Shown: one piece after another, positions 11,163-27,198 of the stretch
How positions within the stretch are numbered: position 1 is the first letter of the stretch
Layout of the letters: the number at the start of each line of letters is the position of its first letter
NCBI RefSeq assembly: GCF_947494875.1
Contig: NZ_CANLWM010000004.1
Span: forward strand, 124,001-188,000
Source: an uncultured Williamsia sp.
GTDB lineage: Bacteria > Actinomycetota > Actinomycetes > Mycobacteriales > Mycobacteriaceae
Direction of reading: 5' to 3'
DNA: 64,000 bases
The notes under the pieces: generated by a model
Told to the model about the DNA's origin: nothing
The model's database searches: none
Seen by the model: the letters and a program-made list of their open reading frames with translations, nothing else
Position numbers and translations under genes: made by a program

Positions 11163-11174
11163 GCAGGCGACGGC

Positions 11175-14100
11175 TCAGCAGTCCCCGCCCGACCCGAGGC
11201 CGGCGAGGTACCGAGAACGGTTCTCCGGGCTGATCGGATCCGTCGTCGCGCAGACCCACCGACGCGCCACGGTGTCGTCGACGGTGCGCATGACCACGGA
11301 GCCGACACGGTCGCCTCCGGTCGCGACCACGTTGCCGCGGGTGACCGGGGGCAGGACGAAGTCCGTGTCCGCGGTGTCCGTCCCGGAGACCGTCGGACCT
11401 GCTGTGAGGTGCCCGTCGGCCGTCGCATCGAACAGTCGCATCTGGCGGGTGGAGGTCCCGACGGCCAGTCGACCTGTGCCCACCGTCCCGACGGTGACCG
11501 CGTAGACGGCGGGGATCCTGCTGCTGATGCGTGGCGTCGCGGCGTCGAGACGCCAGGCCGTCAGATCCTCGGCGGCGGTGTAGAGGGTCCGTCCGTCCGG
11601 CGACCATGTCACCCCGCGCAGCGGGCTCGGGTCGGTGAGTGTCGCCAGCATCCGGGGTGCCGCCGGATCGTGGACATCGACGACCCGGGTGGTCTTGTCG
11701 TCGGACGCGATGGCGAGACGGGTGCCGTCGGGGCTGAACGCCACGTCGCGCACCAGGTCCGACAGGCCACCGAGAGAGGGCGACACCCGTCGCGGCGCAT
11801 CCGGGTTCGTGGTGTCCCACAGCACGACCGAGCGATCGGTGTCCCCGGTCGCGAGGAGGCGACCGTCGGGGGAGTAGGCAGAGTGATAGCTGAAGCGGGT
11901 CCCGAGGTCGAGCACTGCCGCGGGCCGGGGGCGACGTGGGTCGGTGGTGTCGAACAGCTGCACGCGCCCGCCGCTGTTGCGTGCTGTCGCCACCTGGCGG
12001 CCGTCGCGGCGCATGGACACTGTCGGGTGGTTGTTGACAACCGCGTCGATGGGGATGCGGGACAGGGTGTTCCCGCTGCGGACGTCACCGAGGGTCAACG
12101 CCATGTCGGTGCCGACGCTCGCGACGAGATCGCCGGTGGCGTCGACGGCGACCCCCGTCACCGCCCCGGAGTGCCGGTGCACGACTGTGCTCGGCAGGGA
12201 CCAGTCGGCGATCGAGCCGTCCGACAGACCGGCGGTCAGGCGGGACCCGTCGGGGCTGAAGGCGATCGTCGAGGACGTCAGAGCCGACTGCTCGGGCGCG
12301 GACTGCAACGACCACACCAGCTGCGGCACGGTCGATCCCGCCACACTCCACACCTTGACGATGCCGTCCTCGCTCGCCGACGCGAGAAGGTCGGAACGCG
12401 GGCCGTAGGCGACCGACCACGAGCCCGCGGTCGTCCCCGGCACGGCGCTCACCACGCGGACGGGTCGCGCGAGGTCCGTGATGTCGAGGACCGTGATGTC
12501 GGGCGAGTCACCGCTGACCGTCATGCGGGTCGCGTCGGCGGAGAAGGCGATGGAGTGCGCGATCGACGAGAACCCCGCCACCGGGGGGCCGATCGACACA
12601 GGCTTCGTGGGATCGGCGGTGTCCCAGAAGCGCACCGTCGCGTCGTCGCCACCGCTGGCGACGATGTGGCGACCCGGGACGAACGCCACCGTCCGGACCG
12701 GTCCCGTGTGTCCCCGCAGCACCGACATCTGCTGCGGCGACCGGGGATCGCCCATCGTGTACAGGGTGACCGTCGAGTCGTCCGACGGTGCGGCCAGGCG
12801 GGTCCCGTCGTCGGAGAACGCGATCACGTAGACCGTGCCGCGGCCCGGCCGCAACACCGCCGTCATCCTCGGGGAGGAGGGATCGCCGATGTCCCAGATC
12901 CGGACGGTACCGTCGCCGCTCGCGGCCGCGACGACCGGCGCGGTGGGGGAGAACGCCACCGAGGTGACGTAGTCGCCGAAGCCCGAGAGCACCGACACCG
13001 TGCGTCGTCGCCCGTCCCGTCCGGTCTCCCAGAGCCGTACCGTCCGGTCTCCCGACGCCGACGCCAGCAGTCGGCCGTCACGGCTGTACCCGAGGTCGTA
13101 CACCGGTCCGTCGTGGCCGGTGAGCACACGAGCCAGCGGTTGGGTGGTCGCGCTCAGCAGGTCTCCGTCGACCGACTGCTCGCCCGGCCATCGATCGTGG
13201 GCGACGAGCCGGAGGCGCTGCGCGAGTGACGGGTCGTGGCCGGCGACGTTCTGGATCTGCGACAGCAGCGCGGCGCGCTGGGCGGCATCCCGCTGACCGC
13301 GCAGCGCCGACGACTGCTGCAGGCCGATGGCGGCGGCGACCGTGGAGACGATCGCGAGCACCACGACGAGGGCGACCGCACCGATCACCACGGTGCGTCG
13401 GCGACGTCCGGCGGCCACCGCACGGTCCAGGAACTCCTGATCGTCGCCGGACAGCAGATGGCGGTACCGCGTCGAGTACGACCGGTGCATCCGCAACGCC
13501 TCGGCGAGCCGTGCCCCGCGGTACAGGAACGACGGATCACGACCCGTCTCCACCCACGCCCGCGCGTCCTCGTCGAGTTGCTGACGGGCGAGATGCGCCG
13601 CGCGGTCCTCCCGCAGCCACCCGGCCAGCCGGGGCCACGCCCGCAGCACGACGTCGTGGACCAGGGTCACGTCATCGGCCGTCACCGTCAACAGCCGTGC
13701 GGCGGCGAGGATCTCGATGACCTCACGGGCCTCTGCGGGGAAGCGTCTGTCGAGATCCTGGTGGGTCAGACGGCCGCGCAGCGGGATGTCACCCGGGCCG
13801 AACACGGTGAGCGCGACCAGAAGTGATCGGGCGACGTCCTGGTGCCCCGCCGCCACGATGTCGTCCCACGCACGCTCGGCGGTGTCACCCAGCGCGGAGG
13901 CGATCCCCCCGGTCTCCCGGTAGGCCGCGACGGTCATCCTCGGCGCGCTGCGCTGCCATGTCGACGCGAGCGCGTGCGCGAGGAGTGGCAGCCGCGCGGG
14001 GGTGTCGCGGCCCTCGTCGTCGTCCAGCTGCGCGACGTCGCACAGCTCCGCGAGCAGGAGGTCCGGCAGCCCACTCTCGATGCGGCCGCCGACAGCTCGC

Positions 14101-14924
14101 ACGGGTCCGGAGATCGCCTCGCGGAGTTCGGCATCGGTCATCGGACCGACGATCACACAGTGTGCACGCCACGCCCGGGCGAGGAGAGGGACCCGGACGC
14201 AGCGATCGAAGAAGTCCGATCGGATCCCGAGCACCACAGGGCGCTCCCGGGCCAGGCGGTCGAGGGTGTCGATCACCGTCGCGCGAGCCGGTGGATCCAG
14301 CGAGAACACCGACTCGAACTGGTCGAGGACGACGAGGCCCGCGGTCGACACCGTCTCGAGGCCGGCGACGCCGTCCGGCGTCAGACGCGCCCGTGACACC
14401 GGTCCCCTCATGGCGGGGGTGCGACCGAGCGCGCGGGTGATCCCGGCACCGAGCAGCGACGACTTCCCTGCGCCCGACACCCCCGTCACGACCACGAGGG
14501 CCGGTCCGTCGGCCCCGGCCGCCGCGGTCACGGTCGACACCAGGTCGTCGATCACGGCGCCGCGCCCGAAGAACATCTCGCTGCGGGAGTCGTCGAACGG
14601 GGCCAGCCCGGGGAACGGGAGGTCGGCGCAGTCGCGGTCCTCGGCGGCGATCTCGGCGGACCAGACCGCCTCCCAGTCGCCGATGGACAGCAGGTCGTCG
14701 ACCCCGCCGGACGCGGCCCGCGCCGTCAACCACACGAGGAGGGGTTCGACGGCCGCGAACGACCGTGGCAGGTGGCGCCCGGTCCGCCAGTCGCTGATGC
14801 GCTGTGCCGACGCCGAACCGCCCGCCCGGGACACCGCGTGCGCGGCCGACCGCAGCGAAGGGCCGCCCGCACGCTCGAACAGGTCGGCGAGATGTGCGCC
14901 GAAGGTCCCGCCCGCCTCGTCCAC
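11175..14924 (-). CDS. STAND NTPase (nSTAND1-type) with membrane helix and WD40 propeller
   Basis: A 1249-residue signalling-type ATPase. Domains in order: a small helical N-terminal region resembling a helix-turn-helix (about 1-65, AQRISDWRTGRHLPRS); the nSTAND1 entry motif FPGLAPFDDSRSEMFFGR (about 104-121); Walker A GVSGAGKSS (148-156); Walker B LVVLDQFESVF (197-207); a helical arm region; one transmembrane helix (about 511-531); then WD40 repeats from about 590 to the end, with GHDGPVYDL and repeated SPDG-type turns. Such proteins use the propeller as a sensor and ATP to switch state, and some act in antiphage defence or transcription control. The target here is unknown. It is divergent from the lanthipeptide precursor, with a shared 180-bp intergenic region. 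Confidence 0.8.
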   Translation of the reverse strand: MDEAGGTFGAHLADLFERAGGPSLRSAAHAVSRAGGSASAQRISDWRTGRHLPRSFAAVEPLLVWLTARAASGGVDDLLSIGDWEAVWSAEIAAEDRDCADLPFPGLAPFDDSRSEMFFGRGAVIDDLVSTVTAAAGADGPALVVVTGVSGAGKSSLLGAGITRALGRTPAMRGPVSRARLTPDGVAGLETVSTAGLVVLDQFESVFSLDPPARATVIDTLDRLARERPVVLGIRSDFFDRCVRVPLLARAWRAHCVIVGPMTDAELREAISGPVRAVGGRIESGLPDLLLAELCDVAQLDDDEGRDTPARLPLLAHALASTWQRSAPRMTVAAYRETGGIASALGDTAERAWDDIVAAGHQDVARSLLVALTVFGPGDIPLRGRLTHQDLDRRFPAEAREVIEILAAARLLTVTADDVTLVHDVVLRAWPRLAGWLREDRAAHLARQQLDEDARAWVETGRDPSFLYRGARLAEALRMHRSYSTRYRHLLSGDDQEFLDRAVAAGRRRRTVVIGAVALVVVLAIVSTVAAAIGLQQSSALRGQRDAAQRAALLSQIQNVAGHDPSLAQRLRLVAHDRWPGEQSVDGDLLSATTQPLARVLTGHDGPVYDLGYSRDGRLLASASGDRTVRLWETGRDGRRRTVSVLSGFGDYVTSVAFSPTAPVVAAASGDGTVRIWDIGDPSSPRMTAVLRPGRGTVYVIAFSDDGTRLAAPSDDSTVTLYTMGDPRSPQQMSVLRGHTGPVRTVAFVPGRHIVASGGDDATVRFWDTADPTKPVSIGPPVAGFSSIAHSIAFSADATRMTVSGDSPDITVLDITDLARPVRVVSAVPGTTAGSWSVAYGPRSDLLASASEDGIVKVWSVAGSTVPQLVWSLQSAPEQSALTSSTIAFSPDGSRLTAGLSDGSIADWSLPSTVVHRHSGAVTGVAVDATGDLVASVGTDMALTLGDVRSGNTLSRIPIDAVVNNHPTVSMRRDGRQVATARNSGGRVQLFDTTDPRRPRPAAVLDLGTRFSYHSAYSPDGRLLATGDTDRSVVLWDTTNPDAPRRVSPSLGGLSDLVRDVAFSPDGTRLAIASDDKTTRVVDVHDPAAPRMLATLTDPSPLRGVTWSPDGRTLYTAAEDLTAWRLDAATPRISSRIPAVYAVTVGTVGTGRLAVGTSTRQMRLFDATADGHLTAGPTVSGTDTADTDFVLPPVTRGNVVATGGDRVGSVVMRTVDDTVARRWVCATTDPISPENRSRYLAGLGSGGDC

Positions 14925-15091
14925 GTCCTGACCGTAGTCGGTGCAGGTCGCGAGGGGTACTTGCTGAGAGTCATTAGGGCTGCGAACTCGCGAACGTCTG
15001 GGATCGCCGTGTGATCGGTACGTGAACGACGGTTGCCACGGTGGTTCCAGGCGAGCGAATCGCCGTCAGGAAGAAGACGACACGCAACACT

Positions 15092-15099
15092 CGAAGGAG
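15092..15099 (+). promoter_or_regulatory. strong ribosome binding site of the lanthipeptide precursor
   Basis: CGAAGGAG/GAAGGAGA lies about 6 nt before the ATG at 15106. It fixes the start and predicts high translation, as expected for a precursor peptide. Confidence 0.75.
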
Positions 15100-15105
15100 A
15101 ACGAC

Positions 15106-15267
15106 ATGTCCGATTTCGATCTGGATGCCACCGTCCGTCACGATGCCGCCGAGGCCCAGCCGCAGATCACCAGCATCTCGCTGTGCACCCCGGGCTGCCA
15201 GACCGGCGCCCTCGCCTGCACCACGCGCAGCTGCAACCCGACCGGCGGGTGCACCATCACCAAGTGA
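15106..15267 (+). CDS. lanA: nisin-like class I lanthipeptide precursor
   Basis: A 53-residue precursor. The leader (1-20, MSDFDLDATVRHDAAEAQPQ) carries the F-D-L-D box that LanB and LanC recognise, and ends in PQ, like subtilin's TPQ cleavage site. The core (21-53, encoded by 15166-15264) begins ITSISLCTPGCQTGAL, identical to nisin residues 1-16 except Gln for Lys at 12. It contains 5 Cys and 11 Ser/Thr. Expected rings: S3-C7 and T8-C11 (the lipid II pyrophosphate cage), T13-C18, then T19 or T20-C23 and T26-C29. The third ring is one residue shorter than in nisin, the hinge is almost absent and the last two rings would not be intertwined. It is followed by a hairpin and the cluster genes. 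The product should be an exported, membrane-active antibiotic against Gram-positive bacteria; activity and ring pattern are inferred. Confidence 0.92.
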   Translation: MSDFDLDATVRHDAAEAQPQITSISLCTPGCQTGALACTTRSCNPTGGCTITK

Positions 15268-15296
15268 TGCCGGTCGCCGACTGATGGTCGGTTCGC

Positions 15297-15345
15297 GGAG
15301 AACGGATGCCGGTGCCCCTCGCGGGCGCCGGCATCCGTCGTCTCC
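15297..15345 (+). terminator. hairpin downstream of lanA (terminator/attenuator or mRNA stabiliser)
   Basis: GGAGAACGGATGCCGGTG and CGCCGGCATCCGTCGTCTCC form a long stem around an 11-nt loop, starting about 30 nt after the lanA stop. No U-run follows, so partial read-through to the ABC genes is likely. Such hairpins commonly set a high precursor-to-enzyme ratio. Confidence 0.65.
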
Positions 15346-15376
15346 GCCGCAGGAATCCCCGCGATCCTGCCCCTGA

Positions 15377-15394
15377 ATCCCCCCACGGGGGGAT
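15377..15394. promoter_or_regulatory. perfect inverted repeat upstream of the immunity ABC genes
   Basis: ATCCCCCC-AC-GGGGGGAT is an 8-2-8 perfect dyad 35 nt before the ABC start. It could be an operator or a second small hairpin; the regulator is unknown. Confidence 0.4.
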
Positions 15395-15428
15395 GTCCCC
15401 GACAGCCCTCGCCGAGAGGATCGATGTC

Positions 15429-16193
15429 ATGAACGAGACGACCACACACCACATGACGAGACACCACGAGACACGGCCCCCCGTGATCGCGATGGACCAC
15501 GTCCGCGCGACCTTCGGTCGGCGCACCGTCGTGGAGGACGTGTCGCTGCACGTCCGTCGCGGGACGGTCTACGGCCTGCTGGGTCCCAACGGCGCGGGCA
15601 AGTCCACGACGTTGTCGATGCTGGTGGGGCTCGTCGCGCCGGCCGCAGGCGACGTCACCCTGTTCGGGAAGCGCTGGGAGCGATCGTCACTCGCGCGTGT
15701 CGGCGCGTCGATCAACGGCCCGGCCTTCTACCCGCACCTCTCCGGCCGTGCCAACGTGCGCATCCACGCCGACGTCCTCGGACTCGACGGAGACGCCGTC
15801 GACGCGGCGCTGGGCGAGGTCGGGCTGCTCGATGCCGCGCGCGCGAAGGCCGGCAGGTACTCGACCGGCATGAAGAGCCGCCTCGCGACGGCGATCGCCA
15901 TCGTCGGGAATCCCGAGCTGGTGGTTCTCGACGAGCCGCAGAACGGCCTCGACCCCGCCGGGATCCGGTACATGCGGGGGCTGATGCGGCGGATCGCCGA
16001 CTCCGGGTCGACTGTCCTCTTCAGCAGCCACCTGCTGACGGAGGTCGCCGAGACCGCCGACGACATCGGCTGCATCGTCGCCGGTCGGACACGGTTCGAG
16101 GGCCCGCTGGCGGACTTCGCCCCGAACGGTGACGTCGAGCGTGCGTACTTCGGGCTGTTCGACGACGCCCGGTCGTGGGAGCAGGCGTCGTGA
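15429..16193 (+). CDS. ABC transporter ATP-binding protein (LanF-like immunity/export)
   Basis: A 254-residue ATPase of the BcrA/LanF type, expected to drive removal of the lanthipeptide from the membrane as self-protection. Walker A GPNGAGKST (52-60), a degenerate signature STGMKSRL and Walker B LVVLDEP are present. The usual Q/E-loop residue appears to be Asn (ASINGPAFYPHL), whereas immunity LanF proteins typically have Glu and other ABC ATPases Gln. The ATG at 15429 has GAGAGGA 8 nt upstream. Its stop overlaps the permease start as GTGA, so the two form one unit. The His-rich N-terminus (HHMTRHHE) is unusual. Confidence 0.88.
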   Translation: MNETTTHHMTRHHETRPPVIAMDHVRATFGRRTVVEDVSLHVRRGTVYGLLGPNGAGKSTTLSMLVGLVAPAAGDVTLFGKRWERSSLARVGASINGPAFYPHLSGRANVRIHADVLGLDGDAVDAALGEVGLLDAARAKAGRYSTGMKSRLATAIAIVGNPELVVLDEPQNGLDPAGIRYMRGLMRRIADSGSTVLFSSHLLTEVAETADDIGCIVAGRTRFEGPLADFAPNGDVERAYFGLFDDARSWEQAS

Positions 16194-17704
16194 GCGCGCC
16201 GAGTGTCGCGACCGCTCGTCGGTCGACGCGACCTGCCCCGACCTCGTCCGCCTCGCTCGGCCGGTATCTGCGCGCCCAGGCCCGGATCTGGCTGCGGCCG
16301 AGGCTGTTCGCCGTCCCCGCCGCTGTCGTCGCTTTCATGGTGATCACCTGCGGCGTGCAGTTCAGCACCGGCCGCCACGGCGTCGACGACGCCCTCGGCT
16401 TCCTCAACCTCTGGGTCGTCGCCGCCGGACCGCTCCTGACCGCGGTGTTCGTCGCCCACCTCGCCCACATCGACCGCGCAGCGCGTGCCGGCGGACTACC
16501 CCTGCGCGGTGTCGGAGCCCGCGACCGCATCGTCGGCCGCGCCGTGGTGGCGGTGGCGGGCGGTGCCGTCATCCAGCTCGCCGCGCTCGGGGTGTGGTCG
16601 CTGCTGACGATCCTCGCCGGCGACGACGTGCCGGTCGGGTCGACCATCGCCACCGCCGCGGGCCTCGTCGCCGCCGTGGTGGTGTCCGGGCTGTGGTTCA
16701 CCGTCGCCCTCGCGATCGCGGGCCTCGTCGCGCCGATCGCCGGTCCGGGCCTGGTCGCGATCGGGACCGTGGTGACCGGTGTCGCGTTCGCCGAGTCGCC
16801 CCTGTGGCGGGTCGTCCCGACCACCTGGCCCATGCGATCGGTGCTCGACACGATCGGCACCCACGTCAACGGCACCTCGCTGGACGGCGCGTCACTCCCC
16901 GTCGGACCGATCCCGTTCGTCGGGTCCGTCGTCGTCGCGGCGCTGCTGATCGTGGTGGCGGTCGTCGCGTCCAAGGCTCGGCGACCTGCCGTCGGTACCG
17001 GTGCGTCGTCAGCCGCGCCACGACCGACGACGGCATCCGTTCGTCACACTGGTTCCACCCGCGCTCCGGGGGTGCGCTTCACCACGGTGCTCGCGATGGT
17101 TCGCGGCCCCGCGGTCCCGGTCCTCGCCGTGCTGTCCGTCGCCCTCGTGGCGGTGCTGCTGCGCTGGCGGTCGGTGTCCGACGCCGCCGAGGTGTTCGCG
17201 CTGATCGTCCTGCCCCTGGGAGCGACGACGGTTGCCGCACTCTGGGTTCCGCGTGTACGCACGGGCGCCCGCGCGCTCGCCGGCCGCCCCCCGCGTCCCG
17301 AGTCCGTGGGACTGCGACTCGTGCTCGCGATGGATCTCGTGGTCGTCCTCGTCGTCGCCGCCGTGGCCGCGGTGCTCGTCCACTCCGGCGGTGCGGTCGG
17401 GCCCGTGCTGCGGGCGGCAGGTGTCTTCGTGGTGGTCGGGGCCATGCTGGTGGCGGTCGAGACACTGCTCGCCGTCTGGGCGGGGTCCGTCGTCGCGGTG
17501 GCCGTGGGCGTGATCGGCACCGTGTTCGGCACGTTGGTCGGCGGGACGTCGATGTACTCGGGTGTGGGGCTGCTGGTCCCGTTCGCCTGGGCCGCACACC
17601 CTGCGGATGCGTCGGCCGGGGTGACAACCGGTGCGGCGGTGGTGATCGCGGTGCTCGCCTCGACCGTGGCGGCGCGTCGGCTCTACCGCGTGCGTCGCCG
17701 CTGA
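16190..17704 (+). CDS. ABC-2 type permease, double-length (possible fused LanE-LanG)
   Basis: A 504-residue polytopic membrane protein with about 12 hydrophobic segments in two halves, separated by a Pro/Thr/Arg-rich linker near residues 265-290. Immunity systems usually have two permeases of about 250 residues (LanE, LanG), so this looks like a fusion of both. It pairs with the ATPase that precedes it through a 4-nt GTGA overlap. It probably forms the membrane channel of the self-protection exporter. The exact family is not certain because such permeases diverge quickly. Confidence 0.8.
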   Translation: MSAPSVATARRSTRPAPTSSASLGRYLRAQARIWLRPRLFAVPAAVVAFMVITCGVQFSTGRHGVDDALGFLNLWVVAAGPLLTAVFVAHLAHIDRAARAGGLPLRGVGARDRIVGRAVVAVAGGAVIQLAALGVWSLLTILAGDDVPVGSTIATAAGLVAAVVVSGLWFTVALAIAGLVAPIAGPGLVAIGTVVTGVAFAESPLWRVVPTTWPMRSVLDTIGTHVNGTSLDGASLPVGPIPFVGSVVVAALLIVVAVVASKARRPAVGTGASSAAPRPTTASVRHTGSTRAPGVRFTTVLAMVRGPAVPVLAVLSVALVAVLLRWRSVSDAAEVFALIVLPLGATTVAALWVPRVRTGARALAGRPPRPESVGLRLVLAMDLVVVLVVAAVAAVLVHSGGAVGPVLRAAGVFVVVGAMLVAVETLLAVWAGSVVAVAVGVIGTVFGTLVGGTSMYSGVGLLVPFAWAAHPADASAGVTTGAAVVIAVLASTVAARRLYRVRRR

Positions 17705-17754
17705 GGCCGCGCCGCCGCCCGGCGGCAGCCGTCCGCTCTGGGAGACTGACCCGC

Positions 17755-18876
17755 GTGAGGCGCATCCCCTGGACCGACGGGCTGCTCGGCGTGGCGGCCG
17801 TCGCCGCCGCGGCCGTCGGATGGGTCGCGGCGGTGGCGGGCGACCGCGGTGCCCATGGCTGTGTCGCCGCCGCCTGTTTCACGGCGGCGGCGTTCGCGGT
17901 CCCCGTCCGCCGAACCGCGCTCTGGCCCTCGGCGGCGGCGACCGCCCTCGCGTTCGCGGTTCTCGGCGCGACAGGATCGGCGAGCGCCCTCGGCGTCTTC
18001 CCGCTCATCCTGTGTGTCCCGCTCACCGTCAGCGCCGTCACCGGACACGCCGAGCACCGGTGGCAGGGACGCGCGGTGCTGGTGGTCGCCTGCCTCGCGA
18101 CCCCGCTGAGTCCGGCCGTCTCCATCTCCGCCAGCCGGCCCTTCGCGATCGGACTCCACGTCGCGGTGCTCCTCGCCGTGCACCTGTGGTCGAGCCGACG
18201 GCGACTCCAGCGTGAGGTCACCGCCGCCGAGCAGGCGCGTGCCGTCGAACTCGCCACACTCACCGAACGGCAACGCATCGCGGCCGATCTGCACGACGGG
18301 CTCGGCCACGCGCTCACCGCGATCCGCGCGAAGGCGTCCACGTCGGTCGCTCTGGCCCGGACCCGTCCGGAGACGGCGACCGAGGCCCTGACGGTCATCT
18401 CCGACCTCTCCCGGGAGTCCCTCGTCGAGCTGCGACGCGCGGTCGGCGAGATCTCCGGTACCGCGTCGGGGTTCACGGACTCGCCGGCACAGATCCTCGA
18501 CCGCGCGCGGCGGATCGGACGGGAGGTCCGGTGCACGACACCGTCCGGGACGACCGTCGAGGACGTCGACGCGTCGCTCGCCGACGACGTCCGCGCCACC
18601 GTCCGACGCGTCCTGCAGGAGGCGATCACCAACGCCGTCCGGCACGCACCGCCCGATGCACCGGTCGACGTGGACGTCACCGTCGACGACGACGCTCGGA
18701 CCATGACACTGCGGGTGCACAACATCGTCGCCACCGGCGCGACACCGCCCGGCGCCGGACACGGCTGCGACACGATGCGTCGGCGCGCGGCGGACGTCGG
18801 CGGACGCTGCACCGTGGGACCCGACGGCGACGGGTGGACCGTGACGCTCGAGGTGCCCGTCGGGCGTCGGTCATGA
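17755..18876 (+). CDS. sensor histidine kinase (NarL/LiaS type)
   Basis: A 373-residue kinase with about four or five N-terminal membrane helices, a short coiled linker, the HisKA_3 phospho-acceptor box ([17 protein letters not shown]) and an HATPase domain with the N-box [13 protein letters not shown]. The GTG at 17755 was chosen because it immediately precedes the first membrane helix. The sensor part is almost entirely in the membrane, as in kinases that detect envelope stress or membrane-active peptides, so sensing the lanthipeptide or its damage is a fair inference. Its stop overlaps the response regulator start as ATGA. Confidence 0.85.
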
Positions 18877-19499
18877 CCATCCGTGTCGCGGTCGTCGACG
18901 ACCAGGAGGTCATCCGCGACGCCTTCGCCGACTACCTCGACGCCGAGGACGACATCGACGTCGTCGGTCGCCTCGGGGACGGGCGCGCTGTCGTCGACCT
19001 CGCCGGGTCCACCCCGCTCGACGTCGTCGTGATGGACATCCGCATGCCCGTCATGTCCGGGGTGGAGGCGACCAAGCTGCTGATGACCCGCGACGACCCA
19101 CCCAAGGTGCTCATCCTGACGACCTTCGACGTCGACACCTACGTCGAGCTCGCGATCGGGTACGGCGCCCGGGGGTTCCTCCTGAAGGACGCCGAGCCCG
19201 AGGACCTGCTGGCCGCGGTCCGCGAGGTCGCCCGCGGCGGGATGGTGCTCGCGGACCGAGCGGCTGAGCACGTGACCTCCGCCCTGCGGCCCGCCGCCCG
19301 CGTCGACCCCCGCGTGCAGGCGCTCTCACCGCGCGAGGTCGAGGTGCTCGAGTTGATCGGCGCGGGCCTGTCGAACCGCGAGATCGCCGACCATCTCTTC
19401 GTCGCCGAGTCGACGGTCAAGACCCACGTGCGGGCGCTCCTCACCAAGCTCGACTGCCGCGATCGCGTCGCCCTCGTCCGCGTCGCACTCGGCGGCTGA
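18873..19499 (+). CDS. LuxR/NarL-family response regulator
   Basis: A 208-residue regulator with an N-terminal receiver domain (acidic pair in VVDDQE, phospho-acceptor D55 in VVVMDIRMP) and a C-terminal LuxR-type helix-turn-helix ([20 protein letters not shown], then [10 protein letters not shown]). It is the partner of the kinase it overlaps. It likely controls the precursor, immunity or SARP promoters in the cluster. A strong hairpin 24 nt after its stop ends this transcription unit. Confidence 0.9.
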
Positions 19500-19522
19500 C
19501 CGACGCGCCCCCGGGTCCGCCA

Positions 19523-19550
19523 GGTCCGGACACCGTCCGGTGTCCGGACC
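19523..19550 (+). terminator. 12-bp perfect inverted repeat after the response regulator gene
   Basis: GGTCCGGACACC-GTCC-GGTGTCCGGACC is a perfect 12-4-12 dyad, 24 nt after the response regulator stop and about 120 nt before the next start. It is most likely a terminator; an operator for the downstream SARP-lanBC operon is also possible. Confidence 0.6.
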
Positions 19551-19671
19551 GGACACTTTCTCACCCGTCCTGACCTGCGACGACATCGTCGCACCCGAGA
19601 GCGCAACGGACGGACGGCCCTAGCGTCGATCCCGTTGTCCGATCACACGACGATCACATCGGGAGGCACAG

Positions 19672-20211
19672 GTGGACGATCTCCGCGCCGCACCACCGCC
19701 GGCGTCAGCGGTGGAGGTACAGGTCCTGGGCAAGCAGATCGTGAACGGGCTCCCGGTGCGGTCCACCCGCCCGCTGGAGTTCGTCACCGCGCTCGCGTGG
19801 GGTGGTGGCGAGGCCAGCCTCACCACGCTGCGCACGACGCTGTTCGGCGGTTGCGCCGGCCGGTCCGCCGTCGCCACGCTCGCCTACCGCGCCCGGCGGA
19901 TGGGGGTGGAGACGGTCTTCGACCGCTACCGCGACAGCTACCGGCTCACCGGTCGGGTCACCGTCGACGTGCTCGAGATGATGGCGGCCCTCCGCGACGG
20001 CGACCACCGACTCGCGATCTGGCTGTACGAGGGCCCCTACCTGCCCGCCAGCCGCACGCCGATGGCCACCCGGGTGCGCGAGATCCTCCGACGCCGGGTC
20101 CGCGAGGCGACCGACACCGTCGACCCCGATCTCCGCGACCGGTACGTGGCACGTTTTCGCGACCTCCTCGACGTCGAGCCGATGAACGCCCTCGACGAGT
20201 TGGTCGGGTGA
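19672..20211 (+). CDS. compact SARP-like transcriptional regulator
   Basis: A 179-residue protein whose first 100 residues read as the winged-helix DNA-binding domain of SARP/OmpR-type activators: VQVLGKQIVNGLPV, then the recognition-helix region (AVATLAYRARRMGV) and the wing (YRDSYRLTGRVTVDVLEMM). The rest is a short helical remnant of the bacterial transcriptional activator domain; full SARPs are 250 residues or more. The GTG start has GGGAGG about 7 nt upstream. It heads the unit running into the oxidoreductase, lanB and lanC with 4-nt spacing or overlaps, so it may be a pathway-specific activator. The family call is by pattern. Confidence 0.6.
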   Translation: MDDLRAAPPPASAVEVQVLGKQIVNGLPVRSTRPLEFVTALAWGGGEASLTTLRTTLFGGCAGRSAVATLAYRARRMGVETVFDRYRDSYRLTGRVTVDVLEMMAALRDGDHRLAIWLYEGPYLPASRTPMATRVREILRRRVREATDTVDPDLRDRYVARFRDLLDVEPMNALDELVG

Positions 20212-20215
20212 CGAC

Positions 20216-21187
20216 ATGACCCTGCTGTCCGTCGTCGCCCCCTCGGTTCCCGCGCACCCCCGCGAGTGGGATGCCACGGCAACGCTGATCCGCTCGACGA
20301 GCATGCACCGCCTCTGGGTGGGCCAGTCCTACGGTCTCGACTCGACGGCGATGCTCGCCCGTCTCGCCGGACGTGGGCTCGCCGTGCCGTGTGGATCGTC
20401 GGTGATGGTGGCCGGTCTCACCGACCCGCGGCGCGCCGCGGGTGAGGCCCGGAGCATCGCCGCGATGACCGGCCACCCCTTCCTCCACGGGATCGGGCCC
20501 GGCAGCCGCGCGGTCCAGCACCGCCTGCGACCCGACGAGCCGGCGATGCGTCTCGACGACCTGCGCCGGTACGTCGAGACACTCCGCACCGAACTCGACC
20601 CGACCCGCCCCGGGCTCCTCGAACCGATCGCGACGCCACCCGTCCACGTCGGATTGGGGGTCCTGCGACCGCGGGCCGCGGCCCTCGCCGGCGAGATCGC
20701 CGACGCCTGGCTCAGCTGGATGGCACCGGCGACCTACCTCGCCGAGACGATCGTCCCCACCGTCCACGCCGCGGCGGCATCACATCGACGTCCCGCGCCC
20801 CACGGGATGGCGATGGTCGCCGTCGGCGTCGACCGACCCGGTCGCGACCGATGGGCGATGGCGCATCTGGCCGTCGGCGGACACATCCGTCAGCCCCACT
20901 ACCGCGACGCGGTCCGCCGGTCGGGCATCCAGATCCACGACGACTACGAGCGCACCATCGCCTCGCTGCTGCGTCACCGCCTGTTCGTGTACGGCACCGC
21001 GGACGAGATCGCCGACCACCTCCACGAGACGTACGGCGCGGCAGGGGTCGACGAGATCGCGCTGATGACGATCGCCACCACGAACCTGTACGGCGCGGAC
21101 GCGACGTACGAGGACCTCGCCGACATCGAGGCCGCATTTGCGCACCGCTCCAGCACATCTCACGTAGAACGGAGGGCACACGCATGA
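20216..21187 (+). CDS. luciferase-like (LLM) flavin/F420-dependent oxidoreductase, putative lanthipeptide tailoring enzyme
   Basis: A 323-residue TIM-barrel LLM-class protein. Visible family segments are GSSVMVAGLTDPRRAAGEA (strand 3 region), HGIGPGS (cofactor phosphate loop) and PPVHVGLGVLRPRAAALAGE. The cofactor cannot be told from sequence by eye: FMN or F420 are both possible, and Mycobacteriales make F420. It lies between the regulator and lanB and shares an ATGA overlap with lanB, so it belongs to the pathway. One known precedent is the F420H2-dependent dehydroalanine reductase LxmJ of the lexapeptide cluster, which makes D-Ala from Dha. A similar role (D-Ala or D-Abu in the product) is inferred; oxidation of a side chain is an alternative. 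Confidence 0.75.
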   Translation: MTLLSVVAPSVPAHPREWDATATLIRSTSMHRLWVGQSYGLDSTAMLARLAGRGLAVPCGSSVMVAGLTDPRRAAGEARSIAAMTGHPFLHGIGPGSRAVQHRLRPDEPAMRLDDLRRYVETLRTELDPTRPGLLEPIATPPVHVGLGVLRPRAAALAGEIADAWLSWMAPATYLAETIVPTVHAAAASHRRPAPHGMAMVAVGVDRPGRDRWAMAHLAVGGHIRQPHYRDAVRRSGIQIHDDYERTIASLLRHRLFVYGTADEIADHLHETYGAAGVDEIALMTIATTNLYGADATYEDLADIEAAFAHRSSTSHVERRAHA

Positions 21188-24111
21188 CCAGCGACCGACA
21201 CCGTCCACCGATCGTCCCGAGGGTCGCGGTCCGTGCCGCGGTGCTGCCGGTGTCCACCTATCCGGGGGATGTCGGGGCCGACGGCGACGACACGGACGCC
21301 GTGATCGCCGACATCCGACGGCTGTGGGCGCAACCCGGGGTGCCGGCCGCGATCGAGGTCGCGAGTGAGCCGCTCGCCGCCGCATGCCGCGCCATCGTCT
21401 CCGGCGACGAGCGGGACCGGAAGCGGTGCCGACGCGCGCGACGGAGCCTCGTGTCCTACCGGATCCGAGCGGCGACACGGGCGACACCCTTCGGGGTCTT
21501 CGCCGGTGTCGGGATGACCGACCTGACCGACCGTGGTCGATCAACGGGTGATCTCGGCACCACCGTGCTCGACGTCCCGGCGTCGCGCGCGATCATCCGG
21601 CCGTCCAGCGCCACCCGTCGCGCCGCGCTCGAGGCCACACTCGCAGACGAGGACACCGCGTTCGTGGTGAACCCCAGTGTCACCCGGCGTGACGACCGAC
21701 TGGCCGTCCGCCTCCCACGATCGGGGTCCCGGAGCAGTGTCACGGTCCGGGCGACTCCTCCGGTGAGTGTGGTCGTCGATGCCGCCGAGAAGCCGCGGTG
21801 CCGGGGCGACCTGGTCCGCGAGGTGGCCGTCGCGTTCCCGGACGTCGACGAGACGATCGTCGACCGGTTCGTGACCGAGCTCGTCGACACAGAGATCCTG
21901 GTCCCCGCCCACGGTCTGTCGTCGTACGACGTCCCCGCGGTCGGCGATCGTCCCTGCGACGCGACGCTCCGGCTGCCCCTGGGCGCCGCCACCGCCGAGA
22001 TCCGCAGGCGCCGGGCGACGTCGGGGAGCGCCGACGCCCGCAACGTCGCGCTGTGCGACACGGAGATCGGCCTTCGCGGGGCGCTACCCCGACAGCTGGT
22101 CGACGCCGCGCCGGACGTCCTCGACACCCTCCTGCGGGTCTCGATCGTGCCGAGCGCGTTCGCGGCCGTGACCGACCACACCGTCCGCTTCGCCGAACGG
22201 TTCGGACGCGCCGTCGTCCCGCTGTCCGTCGTGGCCGATCCGTACGAGGGGATCGGGATCCCCTCGGCCGACCGTGCACCGGCTCCCGTCGACGAGGAGC
22301 TGTCACGGCGGCGGACGGACCTGCGCGCGATGCTGATCGAGAGGGCGCGGCGGTCGGGAACGTCCTCGATCGCGATCACCGACGACGATGTCGCGGACCT
22401 CCCGCCCGCGGGTGAGGTCGTCGCGTCGTACGACATGTTCCTCCAGCTGGAGTCCCGGGACGGCACGACGGTCCCGGTGCTGAGTCCGGTCTCCACGAAC
22501 TTCCCGGGCGGCCGCGCGATGGGACGGTTCACGACGACGGTGACCGGCGCGCTCGACCACGTCCGTGACCTCGCAGCCGACGAGATCGCCGCCTACGCCG
22601 AGCTCGGGGACCCGCCGGTCATGGCCGAGATCGACCACGTGCACGGGCGGGACGCGATCAACGACGTCGGCGCCGCGCGGCCCGTCCACGACGCGGTGCT
22701 CGGCACGAATGTGCCGGCGGCAGAGGGTCGTCGGGCATTGTCCCTCGACGACGTGCACGTGGCCCTGGACGGCTCGGACCTCCGGTTGGTGCTGGCCGAC
22801 GGCACGCCGCTGGAGTTCCGCCAGGTCAGCATGGTCGCACCGGAATCCCGGCCTGATCTGGTGCGGATGCTCGACGATCTGACCTGGGACGGGTCGGCGC
22901 GACCGTTCTTCTCGTGGGGCACCGTGGAGGACACGACCGCGTGGCTCCCCGAGGTGACCCGCAGTGGCGTCGTCGTCGCGCGACAGCGGTGGCGCCACGT
23001 CGGGCCGCCGCGACCGTCCGCGGACGACGTCGCGCGCTGGTGTGCCGATGCGGGTGTGGCCCGTCACGTCTACTGCGGCACGTTCGACAACAAGCTGCTC
23101 CTGGACACCACGAACCCGGTGCACAGGGAGCTCATCGCGGAGCGTCTGGCGGCCGGTGACACATGGCTACAGGCGGCGCCGACGCCCGAGGACGCGGCCG
23201 TGCTGCCGGACACCGCCGGCGCCCGGCACGCCGCCGAGGTCGTCGTCACGGTGCGGACGACACCGTCGCGCGGCGCCACCGTCTGCCGAGACCCCCTGTA
23301 CGACGATGCCGTCTCCTCGCGCCGCCGGATCACGATCGGTGGCGAGTGGCTCTACCTCGCGGTCGCGACGGACCTCGACCACCAGCCCGCTGTGCTCGCC
23401 GCGGTCGCCGACGCCGTCGGGGACACGCCCTGGTACTTCGTCCGCTACCACGACGGTGCCGGCAACGACCGACTCCGCCTGCGCGTCCGCGCATGGGTGG
23501 GCGACTGCCGTCCGCTGTTCACCGCGCTCGACGACCTGCGGTCCCGGGGGCTCGTCGGAGACGTCACCGCCCCGACACACCACCTCGAGTTCGAGCGGTA
23601 CGGCGGTCCGTCGTCGACCGACGTCCATCAGCAGGCGTTCTGCCGGGAGACCAGGGCCCTGCTCCCCGTGCTCGACCGGCTCCGTGCGGAGCCGACCGAC
23701 GCAGTGATCCGCGCGGACCTGCCGACACCGGCCGCGATGGTGGTGCGCTGGCTGACCTCCGTGTGCGACGACCGAGATCACGCACACGCGGTCCTGGCGG
23801 TGGGTGTCGACGGGTACGAGCACGAGCTCGGCGACCGGGTCCATCGGATCCGCAAGGCGGTCCGCTCGGTCGGACACCTCGACCCGGACGTCGACGACGA
23901 GCACGTCGTCGCGATCGGGTCGGCGCTCACCGAGTTCTGGGACCACCACCGACAGAGCGGCGAGGTCGCGACCGGCCCCGAGGTGCTGCAGAGCGCGCTG
24001 CACCTGTTCTGCAACCGACTGGGCCTCACCCGGTCCGACGAGTACGCGGCACTCCTGATGTGCCGGGACAGATTCCGACGAGACGAGCGAGAGGCGACGA
24101 CAGACCGATGA
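21184..24111 (+). CDS. lanB: class I lanthipeptide dehydratase, full length
   Basis: A 975-residue LanB. These enzymes use glutamyl-tRNA to glutamylate Ser/Thr of the precursor core and then eliminate glutamate to give Dha/Dhb. The N-terminal glutamylation domain has the family motif YRIRAATRATPFGVFAGVG at about 92-110. The C-terminal elimination (SpaB_C) domain begins near residue 720 (WLYLAVATDL) and contains WYFVRYHDGAGNDRLRLRV. Both domains are in one chain, as in NisB, unlike split thiopeptide systems. The ATG at 21184 overlaps the LLM gene; the stop abuts lanC. It should act in a complex with LanC at the membrane, guided by the FDLD leader box. Confidence 0.93.
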   Translation: MTSDRHRPPIVPRVAVRAAVLPVSTYPGDVGADGDDTDAVIADIRRLWAQPGVPAAIEVASEPLAAACRAIVSGDERDRKRCRRARRSLVSYRIRAATRATPFGVFAGVGMTDLTDRGRSTGDLGTTVLDVPASRAIIRPSSATRRAALEATLADEDTAFVVNPSVTRRDDRLAVRLPRSGSRSSVTVRATPPVSVVVDAAEKPRCRGDLVREVAVAFPDVDETIVDRFVTELVDTEILVPAHGLSSYDVPAVGDRPCDATLRLPLGAATAEIRRRRATSGSADARNVALCDTEIGLRGALPRQLVDAAPDVLDTLLRVSIVPSAFAAVTDHTVRFAERFGRAVVPLSVVADPYEGIGIPSADRAPAPVDEELSRRRTDLRAMLIERARRSGTSSIAITDDDVADLPPAGEVVASYDMFLQLESRDGTTVPVLSPVSTNFPGGRAMGRFTTTVTGALDHVRDLAADEIAAYAELGDPPVMAEIDHVHGRDAINDVGAARPVHDAVLGTNVPAAEGRRALSLDDVHVALDGSDLRLVLADGTPLEFRQVSMVAPESRPDLVRMLDDLTWDGSARPFFSWGTVEDTTAWLPEVTRSGVVVARQRWRHVGPPRPSADDVARWCADAGVARHVYCGTFDNKLLLDTTNPVHRELIAERLAAGDTWLQAAPTPEDAAVLPDTAGARHAAEVVVTVRTTPSRGATVCRDPLYDDAVSSRRRITIGGEWLYLAVATDLDHQPAVLAAVADAVGDTPWYFVRYHDGAGNDRLRLRVRAWVGDCRPLFTALDDLRSRGLVGDVTAPTHHLEFERYGGPSSTDVHQQAFCRETRALLPVLDRLRAEPTDAVIRADLPTPAAMVVRWLTSVCDDRDHAHAVLAVGVDGYEHELGDRVHRIRKAVRSVGHLDPDVDDEHVVAIGSALTEFWDHHRQSGEVATGPEVLQSALHLFCNRLGLTRSDEYAALLMCRDRFRRDEREATTDR

Positions 24112-25430
24112 CCACGCTCCTGCACGACCCCGCGCAGTCCGGCACACCCTCGGGCGACGACCCCGTCGCGCTCGGGTGGCGCATCCTGCACCGGTGCATC
24201 GACGACGCGCCGTGGCCCGACCGTCCGCACCCAATCGACCACCGCTTCGACGTCGCGTGGGACCCGATGTCCGTCGGCTACGGCGATCTCGGTGTCGCGC
24301 TGGTCTGCTCGGCCGCAGATCAGCGCGATCCCGACGGCGGGTGGGACACCGCAGCGCACCGTCACGTCGTCGAGGCGGTCCGACGCTACTCCCAGACCCG
24401 GGACCTGACCGTCGGCTTGTTCTCCGGCGTCGCCGCCCTCGCGTTCACCCTGCGGTGCCTGTCGCGAGACGGTGAGCGCTACCGCGGTGCCATCGCCGAC
24501 GTGGACGCGGAGTTGGTCCGGCGGACGAGATCGCTGCTGGCCGCGGTCGATCCCGCATCGGGGGTCGGGACGGCCGACTACGACGTCATCTCCGGGCTGG
24601 CCGGCGTCATGACCTATGCGATGACCACCGACGCCGTGTCGGACCCGGCCGTGTACCGGCTCACCGGCGACATCCGCGACAGACTCACCGACCTGGCCCT
24701 GGCCACCGGTGACGTCGGCGGGTTCTGGACACCCGGTGGCCGGGTCTCCGACATCGATGCCGTGGACCGCGACAACCTCTGGGCCGGCTACCTGAACCTC
24801 GGGTTCGCGCACGGGATCGCCGGTGTGGTGTCCGTCCTCGGTCAGTGCGTCGACCGTGGGCTCGGCGGGACGCGGACCCGTGGGGCCGTGGACCACCTCG
24901 TCGACATCCTCGAGCGCAGCGCTCGCACGGTCGACACGATCGACGTCCCCTACCACCTGTCGCTCGCGGTGCACCGCCGCGACGGACTGACCCGCGAGGC
25001 ACGGAGCAATGCCGAACTCAGCCGGTATGCCTGGTGTTACGGGAACCCCGGCGTCGCACTGGCCCTGTCGAACAGCGACCACTGCAGGTCCACCCGGCGC
25101 GGACTCGTCGACGACCTCGACAACGCCGACGACCGCACGGCGGCGCAGCGCGTCGTCGACAACCCCTCCCTCTGTCACGGCAGCGCCGGACTCCTCCTGA
25201 TGGACCGATGGGTCCACGGTCGCAGTGGGTCGCCGTGGCTCGCCGAGACGATCGGGCACCACGACGAGGGAGCACGACTCCTGCTGCGGAACAGGCAACT
25301 CGGCGTCGACCACCTCGACAGCCCCGGCTTCCTCGACGGTGCCGGGGGAGCGGCGGTCGCCCTCGTCGCCCAGGACGGCAACCCCGAACCCCACTGCCTC
25401 CGCGCTCTCTCCGGACGGTGGTCGGCGTGA
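24108..25430 (+). CDS. lanC: lanthipeptide cyclase
   Basis: A 440-residue LanC, the zinc enzyme that adds Cys thiols to Dha/Dhb to form lanthionine and methyllanthionine rings. The zinc ligands are visible: C310 (AWCYGNPG) and C356-H357 (SLCHGSAG). The toroid GxxHG-type motif is FAHGIAG around 233-239. The length is normal. The ATG at 24108 overlaps the lanB stop and its own stop overlaps the next ABC gene as GTGA. It should form the five rings predicted for the precursor. Confidence 0.93.
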   Translation: MTTLLHDPAQSGTPSGDDPVALGWRILHRCIDDAPWPDRPHPIDHRFDVAWDPMSVGYGDLGVALVCSAADQRDPDGGWDTAAHRHVVEAVRRYSQTRDLTVGLFSGVAALAFTLRCLSRDGERYRGAIADVDAELVRRTRSLLAAVDPASGVGTADYDVISGLAGVMTYAMTTDAVSDPAVYRLTGDIRDRLTDLALATGDVGGFWTPGGRVSDIDAVDRDNLWAGYLNLGFAHGIAGVVSVLGQCVDRGLGGTRTRGAVDHLVDILERSARTVDTIDVPYHLSLAVHRRDGLTREARSNAELSRYAWCYGNPGVALALSNSDHCRSTRRGLVDDLDNADDRTAAQRVVDNPSLCHGSAGLLLMDRWVHGRSGSPWLAETIGHHDEGARLLLRNRQLGVDHLDSPGFLDGAGGAAVALVAQDGNPEPHCLRALSGRWSA

Positions 25431-26383
25431 GCATCCTCGAGAACACCCGCACCGGGACGACCCGCCCCGTCGCGGCGACACCCGCCTCTGCCGTCAGCGT
25501 CGAGGACGCGGTGGTGACCTTCGGCCGCACAACGGTTCTCGGGCCGGTCTCGCTCGATCTGCCGGCCGGATCCACAGTCGCGGTGCTGGGTCACAACGGT
25601 GCCGGCAAGACCACACTCCTGCGGCTGATGGCGGGGATCGTCGTTCCCGTGGCGGGATCGGTACGCGTGGCCGGTGTCGACCCCACCCGCAGATGGCGAC
25701 AGGTGGCGCGCGTGGTGGGCTCCAGCTTCTACCCCGAGCGCGCGTTCTACTTCCGGCTGAGCGTGGCGGCGAACCTCGAGTACTTCCAGTCGCTGCAGAA
25801 GGTCTTCGGGCGACGCGCCCGCGACGAACGCGATCGCCTGCTCCGCCAGGTCGGTCTCGCCGACATCGCCGACCGCAAGTTCATGGAGCTGTCACTGGGG
25901 CAACGCAAACGCGTGGGGTTGGCCAAGGCGATGATCGGCGACCCGGAGGTCGTCCTGCTCGACGAACCGCTGGCCAATCTCGACGACGAGGGCCGGGCCG
26001 TCGTCTCCTCGGTCGTGACCGACCGCGCCCGACAGGGACGGACCACCGTCTTCACCACCCACCAGATGGGAGACGTCCGGGACGCCGTCACCGACGTCGT
26101 CCGGGTCGCGCACGGATCGCTGGTGCACGAACGCATCTCGGATGCGGAGGACAGCGTGCCCTGTCGTCGCATCGAGGTGCGGGGCGGTCCGCGCGCCGGA
26201 TGTGACCTGTCCGGGGTGTCCGCGATCTATCGGACCACCACGGATGGCGACCGCATCCGGCTGACGGTCCCCGTCGACGTCCGGATGTCGACGGTGCTCG
26301 CCCAGGTCGAGGAGGCCGGCGTCGCCGTCGCCTCGGTGTGGGAGGGCGAACACCTCTCCGACCACGAGGAGCAGATCGCATGA
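25427..26383 (+). CDS. ABC transporter ATP-binding protein, second lanthipeptide exporter/immunity system
   Basis: A 318-residue ATPase with Walker A GHNGAGKTT, signature LSLGQRKRVGLAK and Walker B VVLLDEP. The N-terminal extension (about 25 residues, Thr/Ala-rich) and C-terminal regulatory tail are longer than in the first ATPase of the cluster. It belongs to the ABC-2/DrrA type, not the peptidase-containing or six-helix-fused LanT type. It is translationally coupled to lanC upstream and to its permease downstream. The likely job is peptide export or a second layer of self-protection; the sequence cannot separate these. Confidence 0.85.
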   Translation: MSILENTRTGTTRPVAATPASAVSVEDAVVTFGRTTVLGPVSLDLPAGSTVAVLGHNGAGKTTLLRLMAGIVVPVAGSVRVAGVDPTRRWRQVARVVGSSFYPERAFYFRLSVAANLEYFQSLQKVFGRRARDERDRLLRQVGLADIADRKFMELSLGQRKRVGLAKAMIGDPEVVLLDEPLANLDDEGRAVVSSVVTDRARQGRTTVFTTHQMGDVRDAVTDVVRVAHGSLVHERISDAEDSVPCRRIEVRGGPRAGCDLSGVSAIYRTTTDGDRIRLTVPVDVRMSTVLAQVEEAGVAVASVWEGEHLSDHEEQIA

Positions 26384-27198
26384 GTGTCACCGTGTTCCAC
26401 GAGTACCGCGCGTTCGTCCGCAAGGAGGTCGCCGAACGACGCACCTACCGCACCGCCGTGCTGCTGGGGGTGGTGTCGTCGCTCGTCGCCCTGGGACAGT
26501 TCGCCTTCCTCGGGGTGTTCCTCCGCGACGGTGGCACCCTGCCCGGCATGCAGGAGTACGGCGGCAGCGTCGCGGCGTTCCTCATCTCGGGTACCGCGTT
26601 CAGCGGATTCGTCATGGTCTCCCTCCACGGCCTCACCCAGTCGATCCAGGCCGAACAGGTCGCCGGCACGCTGGAGGCGGTGGCCGGCTCGGCTGTCGGT
26701 CTCCTGCGCGTCATGATGTTCGGCGCGGTCACCGCGATGATCGGGACGTTCGCCGGGTCCGCCCTCATGCTCGTGTTCTTCTCGGCCGTCCTGGGTTTCC
26801 CCCTCTCCGTCGACCCGTTGTCGCTCGGGTTCGCGCTCACCGCGACCGTCGTCTGCCTCGGTGGTTTCGGGATGGCCGGATGCGGGATCGTGCTCGTCAC
26901 CAAGAAGGGGGACCCCGTCTCCTGGCTCGTGTTCACCACCATGACGCTGCTATCGGGGATCCTCTACCCGACCTCGGTCCTCCCCGGGTGGTTGCAGGAG
27001 GTGGCGCACCTGCTCCCGACCACCGTCGCGCTCGACCTCGTCCGCAGGTCCCTGCTCGCCGGCGCCACGCTGTCGGGGACGGCGGGCGGTTCCACCGTCC
27101 TGCTCGCCTGGACCGCGGTGAGCGTCCCCGTCGGTGCGGCCGTGCTGGTGTGGGGTCTGCGCGCCACCCGACTCCGCGGCTCGCTGGCGCAGTTCTGA
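26380..27198 (+). CDS. ABC-2 type permease, partner of the preceding ATPase
   Basis: A 272-residue membrane protein with six hydrophobic segments (for example TAVLLGVVSSLVALGQFAFL near the N-terminus) and the usual late ABC-2 pattern LLSGILYPTSVLPGWLQ. The ATG at 26380 overlaps the ATPase stop. It is the last gene of the regulator-oxidoreductase-lanB-lanC-ABC unit. No protease gene follows. Confidence 0.85.
   Translation: MSVTVFHEYRAFVRKEVAERRTYRTAVLLGVVSSLVALGQFAFLGVFLRDGGTLPGMQEYGGSVAAFLISGTAFSGFVMVSLHGLTQSIQAEQVAGTLEAVAGSAVGLLRVMMFGAVTAMIGTFAGSALMLVFFSAVLGFPLSVDPLSLGFALTATVVCLGGFGMAGCGIVLVTKKGDPVSWLVFTTMTLLSGILYPTSVLPGWLQEVAHLLPTTVALDLVRRSLLAGATLSGTAGGSTVLLAWTAVSVPVGAAVLVWGLRATRLRGSLAQF

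Follow-up and report, generated by a model that had tools for sequence, protein, structure and literature searches.

A class I lanthipeptide gene cluster with a nisin-like precursor and a LanJC-like reductase gene directly before lanB was found in the window (the whole stretch of 64,000 nucleotides of Williamsia sp. DNA that was analysed, with a G+C content of 70.4%, from a genome of 4.77 Mb). In the reading that we consider probable, the cluster is carried on an acquired block and its product is an antibiotic of nisin type whose rings D and E are separate and in which D-Ala or D-Abu would arise through the reductase. The reductase, which the preliminary description left unmentioned, is in our view the most distinctive part of the cluster. 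The features are listed in Table 1.

Table 1. Cluster genes, repeats and block of the Williamsia sp. window (positions are those of the window; bit scores are profile matches)
Feature	Position	Strand	Evidence or content
Block of ~16.1 kb	11163..27238		between acetate kinase gene (ends 11162) and small repeat-protein/JmjC-cupin pair
nSTAND1 NTPase with WD40 propeller	11175..14924	-	Pfam nSTAND1 283.9, WD40 194.6 bits; left edge of block
Candidate operator before lanA	14999..15027	+	TGTGA-like repeats, 11-bp period, around CGTGTGATCG
Class I cluster	15106-27198	+	lanA, LanFEG-like ABC pair, two-component system, small regulator, reductase, LanB, LanC, second ABC pair
lanA	15106..15267	+	20-aa leader (FDLD box, PQ end) and 33-residue nisin-like core
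LanF-like ABC ATPase (immunity candidate)	15429..16193	+	best match TIGR03740 galliderm_ABC 218.1 bits, below cut-off 309.75
LanE/G-like permease, 504 aa	16190..17704	+	TIGR03732 MutE/EpiE 44.9 bits, residues 39-259, below cut-off 145.2
Histidine kinase, HisKA_3 type	17755..18876 (start codon is a choice)	+	Pfam HisKA_3 60.2, HATPase_c 32.9 bits
Response regulator, LuxR-type DNA-binding domain	18873..19499	+	Pfam Response_reg 81.2, GerE 67.8 bits
Second, inverted repeat pair before regulator gene	19641..19658	-	0 mismatches to TGTGATCNNNNTGTGATC
Small regulator-like protein, 179 aa	19672..20211	+	homologue in 6/6 clusters by alignment
LanJC-like luciferase-family reductase	20216..21187	+	Pfam Bac_luciferase PF00296 59.1 bits (cut-off 27.9)
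LanB dehydratase, 975 aa	21184..24111	+	Lant_dehydr_N 257.8, Lant_dehydr_C 73.8 bits (PF04738, PF14028)
LanC cyclase, 440 aa	24108..25430	+	Pfam LANC_like PF05147 117.1 bits
Second ABC ATPase, exporter candidate	25427..26383	+	drrA 139.5 bits, below cut-off; 4-bp overlap with lanC
Permease beside second ATPase	26380..27198	+	drrB 27.2 bits, far below cut-off

The lanA frame encodes a 53-residue precursor of the nisin/gallidermin family, MSDFDLDATVRHDAAEAQPQITSISLCTPGCQTGALACTTRSCNPTGGCTITK before the stop codon, and a Shine-Dalgarno-like GGAG is found upstream of its start codon. The precursor scores 50.6 bits against the NCBIfam profile TIGR03731 (cut-off 29.3) and 25.7 bits against Pfam Gallidermin (cut-off 21), and its leader, with FDLD at residues 4-7, matches the FDLD family NF038155 at 30.6 bits (cut-off 20). 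As these three models are above their cut-offs and the motif SxxxCTPGC occurs a single time when the window is read in six frames (127,996 positions), the match is not due to chance. The nisin-like precursor read at this place in the preliminary description is thus confirmed, with the LanB, LanC and transporter genes downstream on the same strand, and its membership of the class I nisin family is supported by the curated models. A precursor search of the whole genome returned the window's own lanA at 2.7e-32 and two more rows, with E values of 0.27 and 0.95, which were taken as noise. When the core was aligned to that of nisin A, 15 of the first 16 residues were identical, the exception being Lys12, replaced by Gln, just as had been described; overall, the two cores agree in 17 of the 34 aligned columns (50.0% identity, 64.7% similarity). 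Translation also bore out the described count of 5 Cys and 11 Ser/Thr in the 33-residue core, which has TITK at its C-terminus. The calculated neutral monoisotopic mass of the unmodified core is 3258.518; eight dehydrations (18.011 each) would lower it to 3114.43, and each reduction would add 2.016.

The precursor was compared within a set of six that comprises the window's own, that of G807, a genome of another genus of the same family, and those of the Streptomyces loci L011, L012, L013 and L014. The G807 precursor (ITSKSLCTPGCPTGALGCFTQNCDPTNGCTITK), from 401 sampled family genomes, is 70% identical to that of the window; the four Streptomyces loci were found by a scan of genome contigs, and their precursors are 57-61% identical to it. 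Part of the earlier account of the leader held, namely the FDLD box; the PQ end is present but common to two of the six relatives only (the window and G807), the invariant feature being Pro at -2. In the core, residues 1-11 are invariant in all six precursors, position 4 excepted, and the invariant residues include T2, S3, S5, C7, T8, C11, C18, T20, C23, T26 and C29, position 13 being either Thr or Ser. This invariance of residues 1-11 and the presence of a LanFEG-like pair, although the latter scores below cut-off, argue against a morphogenetic or signalling lanthipeptide, of which class I examples such as SapT exist among actinomycetes, and such a role in place of an antibiotic one seems very unlikely.

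The core of G807 lacks T19 and S22 yet has T20 and T26, and since the latter two are invariant in the six precursors, T20-C23 and T26-C29 are likely rings. The simplest predicted ring map is S3-C7, T8-C11, T13-C18, T20-C23 and T26-C29, which would leave T2 and S5 as dehydro residues outside the rings; larger crossed rings may be present in the lanA product. Judged by the Cys spacing and the conserved donors T20 and T26, the D and E rings are probably separate, which agrees with the preliminary description, as do a ring C that is one residue shorter (T13-C18) and a hinge that is almost absent.

The eleven genes from lanA through the last permease are all open frames, with 4-bp overlaps at 6 of the 10 junctions, and those for the regulator, reductase, LanB, LanC, ABC ATPase and permease form a tight run with 4-bp overlaps or 4-bp gaps. 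By sequence, the best PDB match of LanB is 5ehk (E 1.2e-27; lantibiotic dehydratase in the record), which we take to be MibB, followed by 9g04 and by NisB (E 9.7e-9). LanC was aligned to NisC (E 4.3e-17) across the AWCYG and CHG zinc-ligand stretches, whose residues presumably make up a Cys-Cys-His zinc site; the Cys-Cys-His triad of LanC is described in PMC11672506. The LanE/G-like permease gave no Pfam match. The permease beside the second ATPase was examined by NCBIfam only, and its homologues in G807 and L012 match Pfam ABC2_membrane. No LanP, NisT-type or LanD gene is present among the genes of 15106-27198 (Pfam, NCBIfam), and in lacking the first two the cluster differs from the nisin family. 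Because three S8 peptidases are encoded outside the cluster in the same genome, removal of the leader by a host protease is possible, and the subtilin leader is indeed removed in this way. Clustered LanP and NisT genes are usual but not obligatory, the V. porci nisin-like cluster having no protease gene (PMC12506125). Seven genes separate lanA from lanC in the window, and actinobacterial nisin-like precursors have been found more than seven genes away from lanC (PMC7268733). The gene set is real, and for precursor, dehydration and cyclisation it appears complete.

The same arrangement recurs in the relatives. A luciferase-family reductase gene directly precedes lanB in all six clusters of this precursor type, and the order regulator, reductase, lanB is kept in all of them, lanB being recognised by frame length alone in L011, L013 and L014. 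In these three loci the regulator and the reductase were assigned by alignment and lanB was inferred from frames of 1034-1056 aa in the same place, whereas in the window, G807 and L012 the reductase, LanB, LanC and the ABC ATPase were all checked against Pfam. The layout of G807 consists of lanA followed by an ABC ATPase gene and a 537-aa frame, with the remaining genes on the opposite strand. In the window, the reductase gene overlaps lanB by 4 bp.

The best NCBIfam match of the reductase is TIGR03564, at scores below the cut-off of 234.25 in three members (77.9 bits in the window, 111.7 in L012 and 92.7 in G807). PF00296/TIGR03564 is given for the luciferase-like daptide reductase in PMC10036551, which also reports that five L-Ser become Ala in a cluster encoding a LanKC/LanJC pair. 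The name LanJC was proposed for birimositide, the masses of which fit a conversion of Ser to D-Ala (PMC7268733); LxmJ performs the step from Dha to D-Ala in lexapeptide with F420H2 (PMC8498797); and sprOR, tied to the same reaction, has orthologues in canonical lanthipeptide clusters, 124/462 (PMC7794033). Within its own genome the cluster reductase stands apart, with 504.4 bits as against 46.9 for the best other LLM. Its nearest relatives on plasmids lie near RiPP genes in 11 of the 11 records examined, one per organism of 36 matching (the 19 others of the 30 listed are further records of the same species). Four of these contexts are of daptide type, four of class V type with LxmK, one LanB-LanC, one LanM and one weaker, that of S. 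clavuligerus, where the one RiPP-type neighbour is of the HopA1 family. The LanB-LanC neighbourhood, on S. atratus plasmid NZ_CP108284.1 (L061), contains the LanJC-like gene and an S8 peptidase gene.

In a tree of 23 LLM rows, midpoint-rooted and with long branches that include that of the window (0.94), the 18 RiPP-associated rows are separated from 5 others with a support of 99/98; these five outsiders are from one genus and two of them are partial, the context of G002 was assigned by gene order, and the published LanJC sequences were left out. The six nisin-type rows form one group, whose support of 93/94 is under the mark of 95/80 given by the tool. The reductase shares its Pfam family with the LanJC-type enzymes of birimositide, LxmJ, sprOR and the daptides, and groups with LLMs associated with daptides, class V and LanM; it is likened to these enzymes by family, context and tree. 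Whereas they adjoin LanM, class V or LanKC dehydratases, that of the window adjoins LanB in a cluster with a nisin-type precursor. A close homologue (274 bits) is found in the same genus on contig 11 of G002 (L050, 10957-16344), and the genes that follow it resemble annotated daptide clusters (L052 and L053) by order and by eye.

A sequence search of the PDB with the reductase gave no match at 0.001. An AlphaFold model from 5 sequences (mean pLDDT 76.2, pTM 0.81) was compared by Foldseek, and the best match was the F420-dependent alcohol dehydrogenase 1rhc; 8 of the top 10 PDB matches are F420-type, FGD1 being among them as we take it, and 2 of 10 are not. The fold match KvPepI is a reductase of the pepstatin pathway, and FMN monooxygenases are found further down the list. 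CofH of the F420 pathway is encoded in the genome (528.7 bits). The enzyme might have another task in the making of a nisin-type lantibiotic, such as FMN-dependent oxidation of the peptide or action on a small-molecule substrate. The Pfam family bears the name monooxygenase, the two top matches outside the F420 type and the FMN monooxygenases point the same way, and TIGR03564 stays below its cut-off. This alternative seems unlikely to us, as the plasmid relatives examined all lie near RiPP genes, several of them of types for which the conversion of Dha to D-Ala is reported or proposed, and as most of the top fold matches are F420-type in a genome with CofH. On the basis of its family, RiPP contexts, tree, F420-type folds, CofH and the published LanJC cases, the enzyme is therefore read as a LanJC that would act on unbridged dehydro residues. 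Nisin keeps Dhb2 and Dha5 without any reductase, so the conservation of T2 and S5 does not in itself make them its targets.

A conserved repeat precedes lanA. The sequence CGTGTGATCG recurs unchanged before lanA in all six clusters and is followed by an invariant CA...T; GTGTGATCG begins 97-112 nt upstream of the lanA start codon in the six. The second repeat site, sought within 2 mismatches, is found in the window only and is absent from the five relatives, and L013 has no repeat pair within 2 mismatches. With a repeat-pair pattern drawn from the cluster sites themselves and at most 1 mismatch allowed, the whole genome gave 4 matches at 3 places, two of which are in the cluster, and the reversed control gave none; a looser form, with up to 3 mismatches, was found 11 times in the window against 25.0 expected by chance and thus shows no excess. 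The third place, far from the cluster (contig 2 of G000, 278153-278181, L064), is a triple operator-like repeat upstream of an ORF named amidase-like by eye. Because of this third place, use of the repeat may not be confined to the cluster, and a cell-wall regulator, for example MtrA, was considered as a protein that might bind it. The 179-aa regulator and three homologues gave no Pfam match at E<=1. By eye it appears SARP-like, and SARP-like control is our assumption, prompted by the 11-bp spacing of the repeats.

The cluster lies in a block that is missing at the same site in two genomes of the same genus, G005 and G001. Between the protein matches to the genes on either side there are 474 bp in G005 and 462 bp in G001, and by blastn the flanks of G005 align to positions 9753-11162 of the window and resume at 27239, and those of G001 align to 9652-11150 and then from 27250. 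The acetate kinase flank matches the ackA model at 455.6 bits. The flanking pair is on different contigs in G002, G003 and G006 and more than 1 Mb apart in G004, and the cupin flank was not found in G007 at 1e-10. In base composition the block is unremarkable. The block may represent a gain here or a loss in the relatives, acquisition being the likelier because of its patchy spread. The precursor was found in one of the eight genomes of the genus, the window's own, as might be expected of a decayed, silent block; such decay is highly improbable in view of the eleven open frames with their overlapping junctions and of the conservation of the module and its upstream repeat in another genus and in Streptomyces.

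Just beyond the block, an 82-aa protein (27392-27640) with three near-identical repeats GEGPADGGSNPxGHDGGADGTA is encoded directly before a JmjC/cupin-like gene (27669-28895), and G001 and G005 retain both genes at the empty site. The protein gave no NCBIfam match; by eye, it is perhaps a multi-core peptide with a hydroxylase.

In samples wider than the genus, TIGR03731 matched in 7 of 397 genomes of the order sample, namely the window's own, five with NAI-107/planosporicin-like precursors (L005-L009) and L010, judged to be chance. Model A1 matched in 5 of 394 genomes of the class sample (the window's own, L021, L022 and L023 judged to be chance, and L024) and in 7 of 401 of the family sample (the window's own, the true relative G807, the planosporicin-like G1034, L027, L029 and L030 judged to be chance, and L028); the samples have genomes in common and each is taken from a larger group, and the counts are not prevalence figures. 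The NAI-107/planosporicin-like precursors, VTSVSLCTPGCTSPGGGSNCSFCC for example, are those of L005-L009 (5 of 397 order genomes) and L026/L033 (G1034), labels that are our own assumption. Carriage of the precursor by plasmids was rejected, with no match in 72,556 plasmid records, and carriage by viruses likewise, none of 30 pattern stretches in viral contigs being confirmed. Near-identical DNA in plasmids covers only ~1% of the cluster, in response-regulator stretches.

Microbisporicin (NAI-107) and planosporicin are class I peptides of actinobacteria in which rings A and B resemble those of nisin; their type has a C-terminal Cys pair and a LanD decarboxylase. The NAI-107-type cores L005-L009 end in CSFCC or CSHCC, whereas that of the window ends in TITK; with this end and with no flavoprotein decarboxylase (LanD) among the cluster genes, a peptide of the NAI-107/planosporicin type was ruled out. 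With nisin, subtilin and gallidermin the cluster shares the FDLD leader, the core ITSISLCTPGC, LanB, LanC and, at scores below cut-off, LanFEG-like ABC genes. It differs from them in its probably separate rings D and E, its shorter ring C, the LanJC-like reductase and a LuxR-type response regulator, that of nisin being of NisR type. Interlocked D and E rings are typical of nisin A and subtilin but are not obligatory, as rombocin lacks ring E (PMC12506125).

The preliminary description knew of no described nisin-type peptide from Gordonia-like bacteria; that no such peptide had been described is not supported. Nisin-like clusters were reported in 35 Actinomycetota genomes, among them that of Tsukamurella paurometabola DSM 43341, whose core shows 58% similarity to nisin A; C. 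freiburgense and flavucin of Corynebacterium lipophiloflavum are named as nisin-like cases, and the core of Nocardia vaccinii (nisin Novac) was active when expressed in Lactococcus (PMC12506125). Further actinobacterial cases are given in PMC7268733, which also notes that class I clusters can hold genes of LanJA and LanJB type, at a time when D-amino acids had been observed in class II alone. Neither nisin-type genes from such bacteria nor LanJ genes near class I clusters are therefore new as such (PMC12506125, PMC7268733). The precursors of nisin Novac and of the T. paurometabola cluster are likewise of nisin type; no mention of a reductase for them was met in PMC12506125, the main text of which does not mention Streptomyces. 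That the peptide is already catalogued, as the T. paurometabola one of Hourigan et al. 2025, is a possibility that we hold to be real but rather doubtful; it concerns novelty and is compatible with the reading as a nisin-type antibiotic. The nisin-like cluster in DSM 43341 speaks for it, and the identity of 50.0% and similarity of 64.7% to nisin A calculated here, against the published 58% (the methods may differ), and a reductase of which no mention was met there speak against it. In the literature covered, mostly open papers with supplements outside its scope, no nisin-type peptide with a luciferase-like reductase was met; nor was the overall design, a reductase before lanB together with a nisin-type precursor and a conserved repeat before lanA.

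From the observed genes we infer the following pathway. The small regulator would act on the 11-bp repeats and turn on lanA. LanB would dehydrate Ser and Thr with glutamyl-tRNA, and LanC would close five (methyl)lanthionine rings (A, S3-C7; B, T8-C11; C, T13-C18; D, T20-C23; E, T26-C29), of which A and B would form the lipid II pyrophosphate cage and D and E would stay separate, not interlocked. The LanJC-like reductase, probably with F420H2, would turn at least one unbridged dehydro residue into D-Abu or D-Ala, Dhb2 and Dha5 being the first candidate targets. One ABC pair may export the peptide, the LanFEG-like pair may protect the producer, and a host protease would cut the leader after PQ. 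Dha5 is a weak point of nisin stability. On a further reading our judgement is evenly divided: the cluster would belong to a distinct actinobacterial nisin-type branch, with a LanJC-type F420 reductase acting on the LanB product, D-Ala and D-Abu in place of the reactive Dha5 and Dhb2, a non-interlocked D/E tail, and a regulator of its own working through 11-bp operators.

As the design is shared with a second genus of the family (G807) and with four Streptomyces loci, it seems to mark a lasting branch among nisin-type peptides and not a one-off. If the free dehydro residues are reduced, this branch would offer a natural test of what they contribute to pore formation and to the binding of lipid II, and it could provide a reductase compatible with LanB for peptide engineering.
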